From Nitrospinota bacterium (GTDB lineage: Bacteria; Tectomicrobia; Entotheonellia; J063), in assembly GCA_003696125.1 (NCBI GenBank), contig RFHZ01000005.1:1-5825 (forward strand): DNA of 5,825 bases, in the 5' to 3' direction. Positions 1 to 5,825 of the stretch are shown one piece after another. A program made the translations under genes and the position numbers. The notes under the pieces were generated by a model that saw only the letters and a list, made by a program, of their open reading frames with translations, did no database searches and was not told the DNA's origin. Numbering within the stretch: position 1 is the first letter of the stretch; each line of letters opens with the position of its first letter.

Positions 1-495
1 GAGCTGGCCCACCAGCTCATAGGTCAGGGTACCGCTGCGGGAGATCACGCCGACCGGACCCCGCTTGTGGATATGGCCGGGCATGATCCCGATCTTGCAC
101 CGCTCAGGCGAGATGATGCCGGGACAGTTCGGGCCGATCAGGCGCGACTTCTTTCCGGCCAGGTACCGGGAGACGGTCACCATGTCCTGCACCGGGATCC
201 CTTCGGTGATACAGACGATCAGGGGGATCTCCGCTTCCGCAGCCTCCAGGATGGCATCGGCGGCAAAGGGGGCCGGGACAAAGATGACCGTTGCATCGGC
301 ACCGGTCTGGGCCACCGCCTCGGCCACCGTATTAAAGACCGGGACCCCTTCAAACGTCTCTCCTCCCCGGCCCGGGGTTACCCCTCCCACCACCTTGGTG
401 CCGTAAGCCATGGCCTGCCGGGCATGAAATCCCCCTTCTTTACCCGTGATCCCCTGTACCAGCAAACGGGTGTTGGCATCAACCAGGATGCTCAT
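1..495 (-). CDS. sucD: Succinyl-CoA synthetase (ADP-forming) alpha subunit, 5' part only
   Basis: Alpha subunit of succinate-CoA ligase, a cytosolic TCA-cycle enzyme that interconverts succinyl-CoA and succinate with phosphorylation of ADP (or GDP). The window holds the first 165 residues. The protein is normally about 290, so the left edge cuts it. I see the N-terminal CoA-binding Rossmann region: [10 protein letters not shown] at residues 16-25, then [11 protein letters not shown] at 35-45. [10 protein letters not shown] at 121-130 includes the Cys that sits by CoA in the family, and [13 protein letters not shown] lies at 148-160. The His that is phosphorylated (His246 in E. coli) lies beyond the edge and cannot be checked. 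The ATG start overlaps the sucC stop as ATGA and has GGGAGGAG six bases upstream, so translation is probably coupled to sucC. The reading frame is intact and family identity is near certain. Confidence 0.97.
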
Positions 496-1670
496 GATGT
501 TCTCCTCCCGCCTTTGAGCGCCGCAACAACCTTCTCCGCTGCATCCTTCATCCCTGAAGCCACGATGAAGCTGAGTGGCGACTCTTCCAGAATGCGTTTT
601 CCCTCTTCCACATTGGTCCCCTCCATGCGCACGACAATGGGTAAGGAGACCTGCACCTTGGAGGCGGCCTGCACCACCCCCTGGGCAAAGATGTCACAGC
701 GCAGGATCCCGCCAAAGATGTTGATCAGCACCGCTTCCACTTTGGGATCGGAGAGGAGGATACGGAAGGCGTTCTCCACCATCTCCGCACTGGCTCCCCC
801 TCCCACGTCGAGGAAGTTGGCCGGCTCAGCCCCGGCCAGCTTGATGATGTCCATGGTGGCCATGGCCAGTCCTGCACCGTTGACGATACACCCGACGTTT
901 CCGTCCAGCTTGATGTAGTTCAGCCCGTACTTGGAGGCCTCCACCTCCAGCGGGTTCTCCTCGTCCAGGTCGCGCAGGGCCCGGATATCCTCGTGCCGGA
1001 AGAGCCCGTTGTCATCGAAGTCGAGCTTGGCATCCAGGGCCAGCAGCCTGTTCTCCGCGGTGACCACCAGCGGGTTGATCTCGGCCAGCGAGCAGTCCTT
1101 CTCCACAAAGAGCCGGTAGAGGTTTTGGAAGAGCGATGTCGCCTCGCGCAGGAGGCTTCCCTCCAGGTGCAGGCCGTAGGCGAGGCGTCGCGCCTGGAAG
1201 GCGGGCAGGCCCAGCAGCGGGTCGATCGCCTCCCGCAGGATCTTTTCCGGGGTCTGGGCCGCGATCTCTTCGATCTCCATCCCCCCGGCCTCACTGGCGA
1301 TGATGACCGGACGGGCCGTGGTCCGGTCGATGACGATCCCCAGGTAGAGCTCGCGCACCGTCTCCACCGCCTCTTCGATCAAGACCCGCCGCACCACCTG
1401 GCCTTGCGGACCGGTCTGGTGCGTCACCAGGGTCATCCCCAGGATCTCTTTGGCCCGGGCCTCGGCCGCATCAGGGGTATCGGCCACCTTGATCCCCCCG
1501 CCTTTTCCCCGGCCACCGGCATGGATCTGGGCCTTGACCACCACCCGCTTTCCCCGGAAGGAGTTGGCAATTCCCCTCGCCTCCTGCGGGTTAAAGGCGA
1601 CCTCCCCGCGGGGGACCGGAATGCCATAACTCGCCAGGATCTTCTTGGCCTGAAATTCATGGATTTTCAT
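492..1670 (-). CDS. sucC: Succinyl-CoA synthetase beta subunit
   Basis: Nucleotide-binding beta subunit of succinate-CoA ligase, partner of the sucD product in a cytosolic heteromer. It has 392 residues, the usual family length (E. coli 388). An ATP-grasp domain opens with [12 protein letters not shown] and has the glycine-rich loop [10 protein letters not shown] at 52-61. EINPL at 197-201 and Asp213 (ALDAK) match the Mg-binding Asn199 and Asp213 of the E. coli enzyme. The C-terminal ligase domain has [18 protein letters not shown] at 257-274, FLDVGGGA at 287-294 and INIFGGI at 317-323. I chose the ATG at 1670, with GAGGAG five bases upstream. A GTG two codons earlier overlaps that Shine-Dalgarno site and is less likely. 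It follows mdh after 111 bases and overlaps sucD by four. No motif is missing. Confidence 0.97.
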
Positions 1671-1693
1671 AGACACTCCTCTTCAAGGTACGT

Positions 1694-1773
1694 ACTCCCC
1701 TCTGTCCTGTTTTTCCCAGGCTCTGACAGCGTAAATCGATAGAGCGCAGGAGTTCAAAGGTCAAGAGGGGAGT
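1694..1773. repeat. Perfect 10-bp inverted repeat between mdh and sucC
   Basis: ACTCCCCTCT at 1694-1703 and AGAGGGGAGT at 1764-1773 are exact reverse complements separated by 60 bases. They nearly fill the 111-base gap between the mdh stop and the sucC start. In the mRNA they could pair to form a long-loop stem that adjusts stability or the mdh:sucC ratio. A chance match of this length in such a gap is unlikely but not excluded, because the region is purine/pyrimidine biased. A third copy of AGAGGGGAGT occurs at 2967-2976, at the end of the B2/nucleotidyltransferase gene. Confidence 0.45.
1736..1764 (-). promoter_or_regulatory. Weak candidate internal promoter ahead of sucC
   Basis: TTGACC (1764-1759), a 17-base spacer and TATCGA (1741-1736). 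The -35 is good but the -10 matches consensus at only three positions. It could give extra sucCD transcription; it may equally be chance. Confidence 0.2.
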
Positions 1774-1781
1774 CGAGTGGT

Positions 1782-2895
<1,114 letters not shown>

Positions 2896-2961: not shown

Positions 2962-4527
2962 TCAGGAGAGGGGAGTAAATGCCCTGTTCCGGGCCTGTCG
3001 TAACCGCCTTCCCACGCGCTGTCCAATCCGTCGGCTCAGGGTACCGATCCTCCTGCCGGTCTTCTGGGGACTGAGCAAGGCGGTGCCAAGCTCATACAGC
3101 AAGGCCAGGGTGAGGGGAGAGGTGGTAGATTCGCTGGTGAGAATCGCCCTGGTGGCAACGGCTCTGAGTACACGATCCTCGTAAGGGAAACCATGGAAAC
3201 CGGCTGCCAGCGTGGAAAGCACGGCATCCGGAATCCCGGCCCCGGCGATGTGCCGGGCCAGCCAGAGGGTGGCGTACATTCCCCTGTCCACCTTGTAGGC
3301 CTGCCCTCTCCCCAGCAGTCGTTCCCAGTCGAGTTCCCCCTGATAGCGCTGGATGGTCAGGGCCATGTCATAGAGGGCCCGGAGCTTTCCCACCCCCAGG
3401 AAGCGGTCCAGGTAGGCGAGATGCAGGCAGAGATGCAACAGCAGGTCTTCCGGTGCCAGGATGAGGGTGGGGATCGAGGCGATCGACACAGGACGGGCTC
3501 GTTGCCAGAGATCCTGGACCGGCACCTGCACCCCGATATGGGGAGGCACAAGATGATGATGGAGTTCCAGGGCCAGGGTGCGGTCGCGGTTCATATAGGG
3601 GGCCAGGTGATGGTGCTCCCTGTACCAGGCGGCAAAGCGAGGAGGAGAGAGAGCAGTGTAGTGGAGCCGGCGCAGGAGTCGATCCGCTTCTCCAGTATCC
3701 TCCCTCCTCACCAGCAGGTCGAGATCGCGCATGGGCCGGAGGGCAATATGCGGGTAGACCACCTCGGCCAGGGCCGCGCCTTTTAAGACCACCACCGGCA
3801 CACCCGCCTTTGCAAAGGCAGAGAGAATCTCCTGGAGTCTCTTGCGCATGTGCAGATTCTGGACAGCATGCTGGTGGTAAAGGGTCTTTAATTGCATCAT
3901 GGTCCCTGCAGGCAAACGAGCCTTCTTGTCCAGGCGCTGCAGGCTGGTATAGAGCAGGGGGACCAGGCTGTAGTGCACGGCCATTTCCGTTATCTCCTGC
4001 CAGTTAAGGTCAGAGCGGAGCAGGACCTGCATCTCCTGGGGGTCGGTTGCAGGTCGAGCACAGGTGAACAGGTATCGCTGTTCAGGTGAGAGCGAGGAGA
4101 CCTGGGAGCCGGGAAAGGAGAAGGTTACCGTATGGGAGGGACTACTCCTTTCCAGAAACGGCCTGTCCCGGAGGCTCAGCCAGGCGTGTCCATCCAATGA
4201 TTCTCCGACCCGGCGCACCCCACAGCAGACCTGAACCGGGAAGCCGTATCTCGTGGCAAAGTAGTAGAGGGCCAGGGTGCGGGGCAGGCATTTCCCCGGT
4301 CCGGGAAAGGGGAAGTGGCGGAGCAGGGCATCGGTGTACCGGACCACCGTTTCCAGGCGGGCAGGAGCGGGACTCCCTGGGATCTGCCTGGGGGTCAACC
4401 ACCTGAGGAGCGTGTTCAGCTTCAGGCGGGGAAGGAAGAGGCGTAAGATGCCGAGCAGGCCGGCAACCCGCAGGAAGAGCCAGATTTCTGGGCCGGTCCT
4501 GGGCCATGCCCGCCCCTTTATCCTCAT
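2962..4527 (-). CDS. Lasso-type B2 transglutaminase-like leader peptidase fused to a nucleotidyltransferase
   Basis: Two-domain protein of 521 residues (numbered from the ATG at 4527). The N-terminal third matches the lasso-peptide B2 family (Transglut_core3). A hydrophobic stretch (EIWLFLRVAGLLGILRLFL, about 15-33) precedes the catalytic region with Cys80 in GKCLPRTLALYYFATRYG and His114 in DGHAWLSL. Asp121 may be the third triad member. In known lasso systems B2 cuts the leader from the precursor. The rest (about 145-521) resembles the uncharacterised nucleotidyltransferase family PF14907: a helical lead-in with SLVPLLYTSLQRL, then VPVVVLKGAALAEVVY at 243-258, the metal-binding motif RPMRDLDLLV at 264-273 (Asp268, Asp270) and LELHHHL near 320-326. 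Its natural substrate is unknown. The ATG start overlaps the kinase stop as ATGA and has GGGAG eight bases upstream; a GTG five codons earlier lacks a site. The stop comes 253 bases before mdh. The domain calls are firm; the joint role is inferred. Confidence 0.88.
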   Translation of the reverse strand: MRIKGRAWPRTGPEIWLFLRVAGLLGILRLFLPRLKLNTLLRWLTPRQIPGSPAPARLETVVRYTDALLRHFPFPGPGKCLPRTLALYYFATRYGFPVQVCCGVRRVGESLDGHAWLSLRDRPFLERSSPSHTVTFSFPGSQVSSLSPEQRYLFTCARPATDPQEMQVLLRSDLNWQEITEMAVHYSLVPLLYTSLQRLDKKARLPAGTMMQLKTLYHQHAVQNLHMRKRLQEILSAFAKAGVPVVVLKGAALAEVVYPHIALRPMRDLDLLVRREDTGEADRLLRRLHYTALSPPRFAAWYREHHHLAPYMNRDRTLALELHHHLVPPHIGVQVPVQDLWQRARPVSIASIPTLILAPEDLLLHLCLHLAYLDRFLGVGKLRALYDMALTIQRYQGELDWERLLGRGQAYKVDRGMYATLWLARHIAGAGIPDAVLSTLAAGFHGFPYEDRVLRAVATRAILTSESTTSPLTLALLYELGTALLSPQKTGRRIGTLSRRIGQRVGRRLRQARNRAFTPLS

Positions 4528-5531
4528 GCCCTCTGCTCCCACAGGTGAGCGAGAAGCCGGGGCAGGGCCTGGACATCCTCCCCGAAGTAGAGCCGGTAGC
4601 AGTCTGCCTGCTGGACGAGCCGGGTAAGGATTTGAAACTGGTGTCTCGCCACCTCTTTATCCAGGATCAACAGAGAGTGGGGGAGGAGTTCCTCCAGGGC
4701 CCGGCTCTTGGGAAAAACCTCCAGCCGGCTCCGCGGCCAGTCCATCACCTGGGGGAAGAGGAGCAGGCGGGGTGCACATCGCTCTACCGGGGCCTGGGGG
4801 TAGAAGTCCTCCGGGTAAAAATAGCGTTTCTGCGTCCCTGAATAGAGCTTTTCCTGCGCCTGTTGCAACTCTGGGAACATGCGGATCGTCTGCTCGGTGA
4901 CGTCGATCTTGACCGGAAAGGAGAGGAGTTCGAGCCGGGCTCCCTGGCTACGTAACAGGGGATGATCATCGGAGAGGTAGCGGTAGCCTGCCCGGAGCAG
5001 GGAGATACAGCAGGTCGTCTTTCCCTGCCCGCTGTACCCGGGAATCAGGATCCCCTGTCCCTCTTTTTCCAGGGCTGTGGCATGGATGGTGTACAGGCCC
5101 TCCCTCTTGAGTAGCTCGGTGAGGGCAAAATGGAAGAAGCTCATCCGGATATCGAGACGCATCGCCTCTGGTCTGACCAGATACCCTTCTACCTGTCCCT
5201 GCTGAGGATCGATGCACAGCAGGCCCTGCGCATGAAAGTCACAGATCGTGCGCCGCGACTCTCGATACACGGTACACTTCCACTCGGCACGGAGCAGATC
5301 ACCCACCGCCTTCCCGGTCTGGGAGAGGAGGACCCGGGCAGCAGGGGAAACCCGGATCGGTATGGCAGCACGGTCGGGTACCGCCTGCAGCCCCACCTCC
5401 AGGCATCTTCCCTGCCTAGACCCTGCTGGCGGAAAATGTCGTAGCAGGGAGTGGACCGCGTCGGCAATGTCCGTGCTGTTGGTGGTTATCTGGAGGGTCA
5501 TTCCATGAAAATCATACCGGTACTCGGGCAT
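4524..5531 (-). CDS. HPr kinase/phosphorylase-like P-loop protein of a RiPP cluster
   Basis: A 335-residue protein. Its C-terminal half resembles the HPr serine kinase fold: YTIHATALEKEGQGILI (147-163), Walker A loop GYSGQGKTT at 165-173, and LSDD at 186-189, which supplies the acidic residues after the P-loop. The N-terminal half (1-140) is not recognisable as the HPr kinase N-domain and may bind a different partner. In lasso clusters of the paeninodin type, such kinases phosphorylate the precursor peptide rather than HPr. That is the likely role here, because the gene lies 62 bases after a lasso-like precursor and overlaps a B2-type gene. The ATG start has AGGA six bases upstream. No ptsH or other PTS gene is present in the window to suggest a role in sugar regulation. 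The kinase-like fold is well supported; the substrate is inferred. Confidence 0.85.
   Translation of the reverse strand: MPEYRYDFHGMTLQITTNSTDIADAVHSLLRHFPPAGSRQGRCLEVGLQAVPDRAAIPIRVSPAARVLLSQTGKAVGDLLRAEWKCTVYRESRRTICDFHAQGLLCIDPQQGQVEGYLVRPEAMRLDIRMSFFHFALTELLKREGLYTIHATALEKEGQGILIPGYSGQGKTTCCISLLRAGYRYLSDDHPLLRSQGARLELLSFPVKIDVTEQTIRMFPELQQAQEKLYSGTQKRYFYPEDFYPQAPVERCAPRLLLFPQVMDWPRSRLEVFPKSRALEELLPHSLLILDKEVARHQFQILTRLVQQADCYRLYFGEDVQALPRLLAHLWEQRA
4536..4540 (-). promoter_or_regulatory. Ribosome binding site fixing the start of the B2/nucleotidyltransferase gene
   Basis: GGGAG lies eight bases before the ATG at 4527, which itself overlaps the kinase stop codon (ATGA). The alternative GTG at 4542 has nothing resembling a binding site upstream, so the shorter protein is preferred. 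Confidence 0.6.
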
Positions 5532-5593: not shown

Positions 5594-5734
5594 TTAGAAT
5601 AAAACTTCTCCAAACCTTGTTGTCTTCTCATCCACCTCACCGTACTTCGAGGGGCTGCCGGTCAGATCCTGCAGCCGGGCATGCCGGGTGAGAAACGGGG
5701 TCTGGTAGACCTCCTTCTTCACTTCCTTCTCCAC
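5594..5734 (-). CDS. Lasso-RiPP-type precursor peptide (leader plus 20-residue core)
   Basis: A 46-residue peptide with a GTG start, a textbook AAAGGAGGTGA site and a TAA stop. The leader begins MEKEVKKEV and continues YQTPFLTRHARLQDLTG. This fits the published lasso leader pattern YxxPxLx3Gx5Tx: Tyr10, Pro13, Leu15, Ala19 in place of Gly, Thr25, then one residue. The pattern is recognised by the RRE (PqqD-like) protein, and the Thr normally sits at position -2 of the cut. The predicted core therefore starts at Ser27 and reads SPSKYGEVDE then KTTRFGEVLF. Ser1 to Asp9 would give a nine-residue ring (Glu7 would give a seven-residue one), leaving an 11-residue tail with Arg14 and Phe15 as possible steric plugs. 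The gene is directly followed by the kinase and B2/nucleotidyltransferase genes. That it is expressed and is a RiPP precursor is likely; that the product is a true lasso is unproven, since no cyclase is visible. Confidence 0.8.
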   Translation of the reverse strand: MEKEVKKEVYQTPFLTRHARLQDLTGSPSKYGEVDEKTTRFGEVLF

Positions 5735-5739
5735 AGGCT

Positions 5740-5750
5740 TCACCTCCTTT
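5740..5750 (-). promoter_or_regulatory. Strong ribosome binding site of the precursor gene
   Basis: AAAGGAGGTGA is nearly a full complement of the 16S rRNA anti-Shine-Dalgarno tail. Its GGAGG core lies 8-9 bases before the GTG at 5734. It is the strongest such site in the window and decides the start of this very short gene. A strong site fits a precursor peptide that must be made in excess over its enzymes. Confidence 0.85.
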
Positions 5751-5823
5751 CTCGGAGTAGGCCCTCCTGCCGCTCAAGGGATCGGCTCTCCCGGTCGAGA
5801 CCGCCGATCCTCTGGTGGTGTAG
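5740..5823 (-). CDS. Possible 3' end of an upstream gene (unidentified)
   Basis: One minus-strand frame is open from the right edge to a TGA at 5742-5740, inside the Shine-Dalgarno site of the precursor and five bases before its GTG. It would encode a charged tail: LHHQRIGGLDRESRSLERQ followed by EGLLRERR. Such tight packing matches the style of this operon, and most third codon positions are G or C. The call is weak. The other two frames are also open from the edge: one stops at 5776-5774, and another runs on to about 5636 across the precursor with even higher GC at third positions. Twenty-seven residues are too few to name a family. Confidence 0.3.
   Translation of the reverse strand, partial: LHHQRIGGLDRESRSLERQEGLLRERR
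5779..5810 (-). repeat. Interrupted hairpin upstream of the precursor gene
   Basis: Perfect 8-bp arms GGATCGGC (5810-5803) and GCCGATCC (5786-5779) flank a second 4-bp stem, TCTC/GAGA, with a six-base loop and a two-base bulge. No T-run follows on either strand, so it is not a standard intrinsic terminator. It may be a regulatory or processing hairpin in the operon transcript, or simply part of an upstream coding region. Confidence 0.5.
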
Positions 5824-5825
5824 AC

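Follow-up and report, generated by a model that had tools for sequence, protein, structure and literature searches.

A short gene with a lasso-type leader: probable origin of a phosphorylated, graspetide-like RiPP

The locus described here raises the question of what is made from a very short gene that a first-pass annotation had taken for a probable lasso-type RiPP precursor. The DNA under study (the window, 5,825 nt) is an entire 5.8 kb contig of a MAG that consists of 990 contigs and is 95% complete and 8% contaminated. Housekeeping genes, namely sucD, sucC and the gene for malate dehydrogenase, adjoin on the same strand (window 1-2819). The remaining features are collected in Table 1.

The 46-codon gene with its GTG start is present as claimed, and its Shine-Dalgarno sequence is indeed the best in the window, being closest there to the 16S complement while the runner-up reaches 9 matches. 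A second in-frame GTG is located at 5743. Because it falls inside the Shine-Dalgarno sequence, the GTG at 5734 is the better start. Tyr10, Pro13, Leu15, Ala19 and Thr25 all occupy the positions assigned to them. A survey of 557 kb from other loci gave 1518 short ORFs preceded by a Shine-Dalgarno sequence. The strict motif YxxPx[LIVFM]x9T was found in 1 of them, and this sole match, in locus L039, is itself a likely precursor residing beside a PqqD/kinase/radical-SAM/B2 cluster. The leader motif is therefore not due to chance. Curated leader models, the search of which had been suggested as a check, did match, yet below their cut-offs (lasso_cyano 16.5 bits versus 33, lasso_leader_L3 13.9 bits versus 19). 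These weak matches are what speaks for a chance ORF or a decayed remnant, an explanation that we consider extremely improbable in view of the strong Shine-Dalgarno sequence, a background frequency of the motif no higher than about 1 per 1500 short ORFs, a paralogue with conserved leader and free C-terminus, and synteny. In addition, the conserved short ORF in related genomes on which the annotation had staked its claim exists: the window genome contains a second copy, and about 30 related loci of the Nitrospira group hold homologues with intact frames at a conserved place. Judged by these sequence features, the short gene is a genuine RiPP precursor.

Table 1 Coordinates of features on the window contig (C637) and on contig C674 of the same genome
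Contig	Feature	Position	Strand	Remarks
C637	RiPP precursor gene	5594..5734	-	46 aa (46 codons and stop), GTG start: MEKEVKKEVYQTPFLTRHARLQDLTGSPSKYGEVDEKTTRFGEVLF; leader MEKEVKKEVYQTPFLTRHARLQDLTG, predicted core SPSKYGEVDEKTTRFGEVLF
C637	Shine-Dalgarno sequence AAAGGAGGTGA	5740..5750	-	10/11 bases match TAAGGAGGTGA
C637	Spacer 5' of precursor	5744..5825	-	diverged repeat recurs at C674 end, 80% identity over ~250 bp
C637	HprK-like peptide kinase	4524..5531	-	335 aa; TIGR04352 (72 bits) and PF07475, both below cut-off
C637	B2 leader peptidase domain fused to NTP_transf_5 nucleotidyltransferase (NTase)	2962..4542	-	526 aa; NF033537, PF13471, PF14907
C674 (L004)	G1, ATP-grasp protein	5503-6489
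C674 (L004)	G2, ATP-grasp protein	6425-7369
C674 (L004)	B1, PqqD-type RRE	ending 7839
C674 (L004)	Precursor paralogue VEKEVKKEVYQTPLLTRHARLQDLTGSPSKYGEVDEKVVLNAEVFE	7848-7988

The second copy forms the end of contig C674 (8.1 kb). Over the first 37 codons it differs from the window precursor by one silent and one Leu/Phe change, and the C-termini diverge beyond this point. A conserved leader combined with a diverging C-terminus is usual for paralogous RiPP precursors. As the spacer is repeated at both contig ends, the assembly evidently broke at an array of tandem precursors, and since the two ends are similar and not identical, at least one further repeat unit probably lies between C674 and the window contig. 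Upstream of the paralogue, C674 carries genes for G1, G2 and B1, all in one direction. That the ATP-grasp and B1 genes lie on a different contig of a fragmented, 8% contaminated MAG speaks against the pathway proposed below; C674 is connected with the window solely by the precursor paralogue common to both, by the similar repeat of the spacer and by the order of genes in relatives. The G+C content of both contigs is about 60-61%. The genome's single match to PqqD lies on C674 and its single match to B2 on the window contig. No exporter linked to the window cluster was found, and the best ABC match in the same genome sits on an unrelated contig.

The precursor gene had been described as lying directly upstream of a B2-type gene. 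Such a gene is present, but the next gene downstream encodes the HprK-like kinase, and the B2 domain comes after it. The kinase residues His150, Lys171, Asp188 and Asp189 are invariant in 38 of 38 relatives and correspond to HKDD, the catalytic set of lasso kinases (PMC9266682). The fusion protein scores 55 bits with NF033537 (lasso_biosyn_B2, cut-off 33), 56 bits with PF13471 and 215 bits with PF14907, and contains the cysteine-peptidase residues Cys85, His119 and Asp126. B1 is matched by PF05402 with 69 bits, and its closest solved structures are TbiB1 and TfuB1. The pair that characterizes lasso peptide clusters, a PqqD-type B1 RRE and a transglutaminase-like B2 peptidase, is thus encoded in this genome.

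An ordinary lasso peptide, its cyclase gene residing elsewhere or lost in an assembly gap, would be in keeping with leader spacing, B1, B2, kinase and NTase, all of which are known from paeninodin/pseudomycoidin-type clusters, with a predicted core starting with Ser1 and offering Glu7 or Asp9, and with a contig break exactly at the precursor array. Nevertheless, this possibility is very remote. A lasso cyclase was not found in the window locus, and a search for an Asn-synthase-like macrolactam cyclase in the 95% complete genome yielded marginal fragments only, the best one with 21.2 bits to PF00733 over 69 of 354 positions, so that a cyclase elsewhere in the genome was rejected. An SGGxDS (Asn synthase) ORF was likewise missing from the regions flanking the locus in each of the 17 close relatives; full Asn synthases occur outside the locus flanks in six of the seven relatives' genomes tested. 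Lasso cores are expected to begin with Gly, Ala, Ser or Cys and to have Asp/Glu at position 7-9. S1, E7 and D9 of the window core would suit this rule; the cores of many relatives begin instead with Q, N, V, L or T (as in QKYREK, NKYREK, VKYREK and TKYQEK). The precursor gene and the lasso-type handling of its leader (PqqD/B1 RRE, B2 domain, motif spacing) therefore stand, whereas a lasso product is not supported, because the defining macrolactam cyclase is missing. The likeness to phosphorylated lasso peptides (paeninodin, pseudomycoidin) covers B1, B2, HKDD kinase, nucleotidyltransferase and a leader Thr near the cut site; it ends with the lack of a macrolactam cyclase, with cores that do not keep to the lasso ring rule across the whole family and with the position of a His at Tyr+8 instead of a Gly at Tyr+9. 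The latter also explains the Ala at the Gly position of the lasso pattern: the leader group has the His at Tyr+8 that is found in the consensus of linear polyphosphorylated peptides, LPP (YxxPxVLxHQxIxFETxxS; PMC13381572).

The two ATP-grasp proteins point in a different direction. In G2, the residues Lys125, Lys165, Glu197, Asp265, Glu278 and Asn280 are invariant, such that the ATP-grasp set is kept. Its closest PDB entries by profile are PsnB, CdnC, AMdnB, MdnC and MdnB, and the same graspetide ligases rank top by fold for its AlphaFold2 model (pLDDT 83), with RimK and LysX-type ligases behind. The score for G2 is 120 bits versus PsnB and 38.9 bits versus the best RimK-like entry. G2, its ATP-grasp residues intact, thus represents the MdnB/MdnC/PsnB kind of ligase that is characteristic of graspetide clusters, though it remains under every curated graspetide-ligase (equivalog) cut-off (best 141 bits versus 350). 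G1 has the same fold, but it lacks the Asp, carries Asp in place of Glu in the ExN motif and has often lost the Asn as well. It is probably a pseudo-enzyme partner. The graspetide rosaritide likewise requires a partner protein, in that case of another fold (PMC13097080). Among 386 broadly sampled genomes, 13 contained strong matches to the ATP-grasp proteins, and none of these matches except those of the genome studied here lay beside B1, B2 or kinase genes. The composite is therefore not general to the ATP-grasp family. The ATP-grasp protein of a genome of the same class (G004) was rejected as a counterpart, its neighbourhood being unrelated.

Further loci were sought by scanning 84,980 species genomes with the kinase alignment, a diverse ATP-grasp alignment having proved too divergent. 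This yielded 17 loci from Nitrospira and close relatives, with 48-54% identity between the window kinase and theirs. The main organisms that oxidise nitrite in soils and wastewater belong to the Nitrospira group. Where covered, these loci mostly encode B1, at least one short ORF, kinase and NTase, with B2 and an ABC exporter close by, and their short ORFs share the leader KxxYVxPxLVKHELLRD[IV]TA. One of them, from Nitrospirales (L081), contains the precursor MDQEVRSYTKKELYSQPILLAHSALKNFTAKQYPEKNPKEDE, G1, G2, B1 and kinase contiguously; its G2 is 46% identical to that of the window genome, and no B2 was found within its 21 kb. When the class of L081 was searched with its G2, matches were obtained in 33 of 269 genomes. 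G1-G2-B1 together with lasso-type precursors are present in sixteen Nitrospiria loci (L141-L156), most of which show the order B2, ABC exporter, G1, G2, B1, precursor(s), kinase, NTase. In L152 the precursor MEQQKKESYAEPVLIAHELLRDVTGQKYKEKTSDKVADDV forms a contiguous set with G1, G2 and B1. Several of the sixteen are arranged in tandem with a second, ATP-grasp-free set. In loci L157-L176, neither B1 nor kinase was present within the 20 kb inspected. Those numbered L157-L169 (Nitrospiria) encode an ATP-grasp that resembles G2, in some cases together with one that resembles G1, and represent other graspetide-type loci. Nitrospira loci L079 and L082-L095 comprise B1, kinase, NTase, B2 and ABC exporter without ATP-grasp and without cyclase, and some of their precursors end in Gly/His-rich tails (AKRSGHGGGHGHGHGFGHGF) that are perhaps metal-binding. 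In L145, a PF04116 fatty-acid-hydroxylase-like membrane protein is encoded between kinase and NTase (12493-13530) and may contribute extra tailoring; similar ORFs hold the corresponding place in L151 (4700-5743 and 6453-7601).

The precursors were sorted by their context into 33 that are linked to ATP-grasp genes and 40 that are not, and the two types differ. The leader ends in Thr-Gly (T-G) in 30 of the 33 ATP-grasp-linked precursors, the rest having Thr-Ala (T-A), versus T-A in all 40 of the ATP-grasp-free type. YxE, whatever the residue before it, occurs in the core of 21/33 versus 0/40 (Fisher p ~3e-10, related genomes not being independent). Typical forms are KYREKTSDK or KYKEKTSDK, and the window has KYGEVDEK. 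Twelve of the 33 linked cores are without YxE, some of them resembling GTSGVKTSDK. Lys, Glu and Asp amount to 14, 8 and 7% in ATP-grasp-linked cores versus 5, 3 and 5% in ATP-grasp-free ones, Lys and Glu thus being nearly threefold enriched. The donor (Lys/Ser/Thr) and acceptor (Glu/Asp) residues expected of a graspetide core are present. The window peptide, LTG/SPSKYGEVDEK, belongs to the ATP-grasp kind by leader end and YxE alike, and its core would have a Ser at position 3, the residue that is polyphosphorylated in LPP, if cleaved after Gly26. In the kinase tree, the ATP-grasp label requires a single change, a value as low as this was reached in none of 500 shuffles, and the window kinase groups with those of the ATP-grasp type. 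Support for the branch that divides the tree is weak (46/0), however, and several long branches converge. The B1 tree does not cleanly separate the ATP-grasp-linked and ATP-grasp-free types. The gene, its leader, the gene set and order, the catalytic residues and the co-variation of precursor type with ATP-grasp genes are features of the DNA itself.

The same gene set could in principle serve a linear phosphopeptide of the LPP kind, which B1, kinase, NTase and B2 would phosphorylate or glycosylate and to which the ATP-grasp proteins would append an amino acid or amine in RimK-like fashion. LPP clusters (Popov et al. 2026, PMC13381572) lack a lasso cyclase and combine a discrete RRE with an NTP transferase and an HprK-like kinase, and this combination is found here; the MsbA-like exporter of LPP has its equivalent in the relatives, and the kinase step without cyclase has been demonstrated for LPP (PMC13381572). 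Of the LPP consensus, Y, P (+3), V/L (+5), H (+8), I/L (+11) and T (+15) recur in the window leader, and Q, F and E do not. Moreover, many Nitrospira loci carry an equal set without ATP-grasp, and RimK is a structural neighbour of G2, though a more distant one. We nevertheless regard a linear product as unlikely: both its sequence and its fold place G2 nearer to the macrocyclases of graspetides than to RimK-like ligases, and Lys/Glu-rich YxE cores occur only where ATP-grasp genes are present. In LPP clusters, furthermore, a SipW-like signal peptidase takes the place of the B2 encoded here, ATP-grasp ligases are an addition of the present loci, and LPP clusters are said to be restricted to Bacillota (PMC13381572).

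Compared with graspetides (microviridin MdnB/MdnC, plesiocin PsnB, CdnC; TIGR04184/04185/04187), the system agrees in ligase fold, ATP-grasp residues, paired ATP-grasp genes and short precursors with cores rich in Lys, Ser/Thr and Glu/Asp. It differs in its lasso/PQQ/LPP-type YxxPxL leader with a discrete PqqD-type RRE, in the attached lasso-type B2 peptidase, HprK-like kinase and NTase, in the degeneration of one ATP-grasp of the pair in 18/18 copies and in scores that fall short of every curated cut-off. Carter et al. 2026 (PMC13097080) report that the synthetases of graspetide groups 33 and 39 co-occur with a protein of transglutaminase fold, possibly B2. For these groups, the main text of that paper mentions neither an RRE nor an HprK-like kinase, an NTase, a leader of the lasso type or Nitrospira; the family described here may overlap group 33 or 39. 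Searches of open-licence papers retrieved nothing on graspetides together with Nitrospira, nor did those for RRE, PqqD or HPr kinase with ATP-grasp yield a description of the present gene combination.

Taken as a whole, the evidence favours, with a probability of roughly 0.76, that the peptide encoded by the gene matures into a phosphorylated, graspetide-like RiPP by means of leader machinery of the lasso/LPP type. The annotation was correct in seeing a RiPP precursor with a lasso-type leader and wrong in expecting a lasso; a phosphorylated graspetide-like product of a composite pathway is most likely. B1, as a discrete PqqD-type RRE, would bind the YxxPxL leader. G2, probably aided by the degenerate G1, would activate Glu/Asp of the core and join them to Lys (or Ser/Thr) side chains, so that omega-amide or omega-ester bonds would close rings in the region of SKYGEVDEK. 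The HprK-like kinase would phosphorylate a Ser/Thr of the core, and the NTase may decorate the phosphate, an extension with precedent in pseudomycoidin (PMC9266682). B1 would then present LTG, at the end of the leader, to the cysteine peptidase B2 for a cut after Gly, and an ABC exporter, which is present in most relatives, would secrete the product. Bond type, ring pattern, phosphosite, step order and cut site are predictions throughout.

A wider proposal is a composite RiPP family, centred on Nitrospira and extending to another phylum, in which a lasso/LPP leader-RRE-B2 module feeds a graspetide macrocyclase with a catalytically dead ATP-grasp partner, giving rise to phosphorylated (perhaps phosphoglycosylated) cross-linked peptides. 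Cross-linked and non-cross-linked precursors would be distinguished by T-G versus T-A and by separate, often tandem B1/kinase sets. We see the chances for and against this proposal as evenly balanced. Lasso and graspetide enzymes were joined on one peptide by engineering in 2026, and the modifications were called unseen in nature (PMC13003496); the loci described here apparently constitute a natural joining of a lasso-type leader module to graspetide ligases and a phosphorylation module. The tandem two-pathway loci offer testable systems for leader discrimination. The findings also serve as a warning that clusters of this kind are mislabelled when lasso annotation relies solely on leader, B1 and B2.

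In two other genomes, PqqD, HprK-like kinase, radical SAM and B2 proteins are encoded together without lasso cyclase (L038:7751-10493, L039:5686-12880), in L039 with a precursor-like ORF (MKKKVEKKKYSKPTVKKNEPLVNITFATAG...) at 8055-8201. By its gene content, this is again the chassis described above, combined with another modifying enzyme, and it suggests that the RRE/B2/kinase module is portable and serves differing modifying enzymes, ATP-grasp proteins here and radical SAM proteins elsewhere. Outside the cluster, the uvrB reading frame of the window genome (contig C245, L180:2559-3662) contains an apparent intein-like insert right after Walker A (GKS...VHNTFTMAN).
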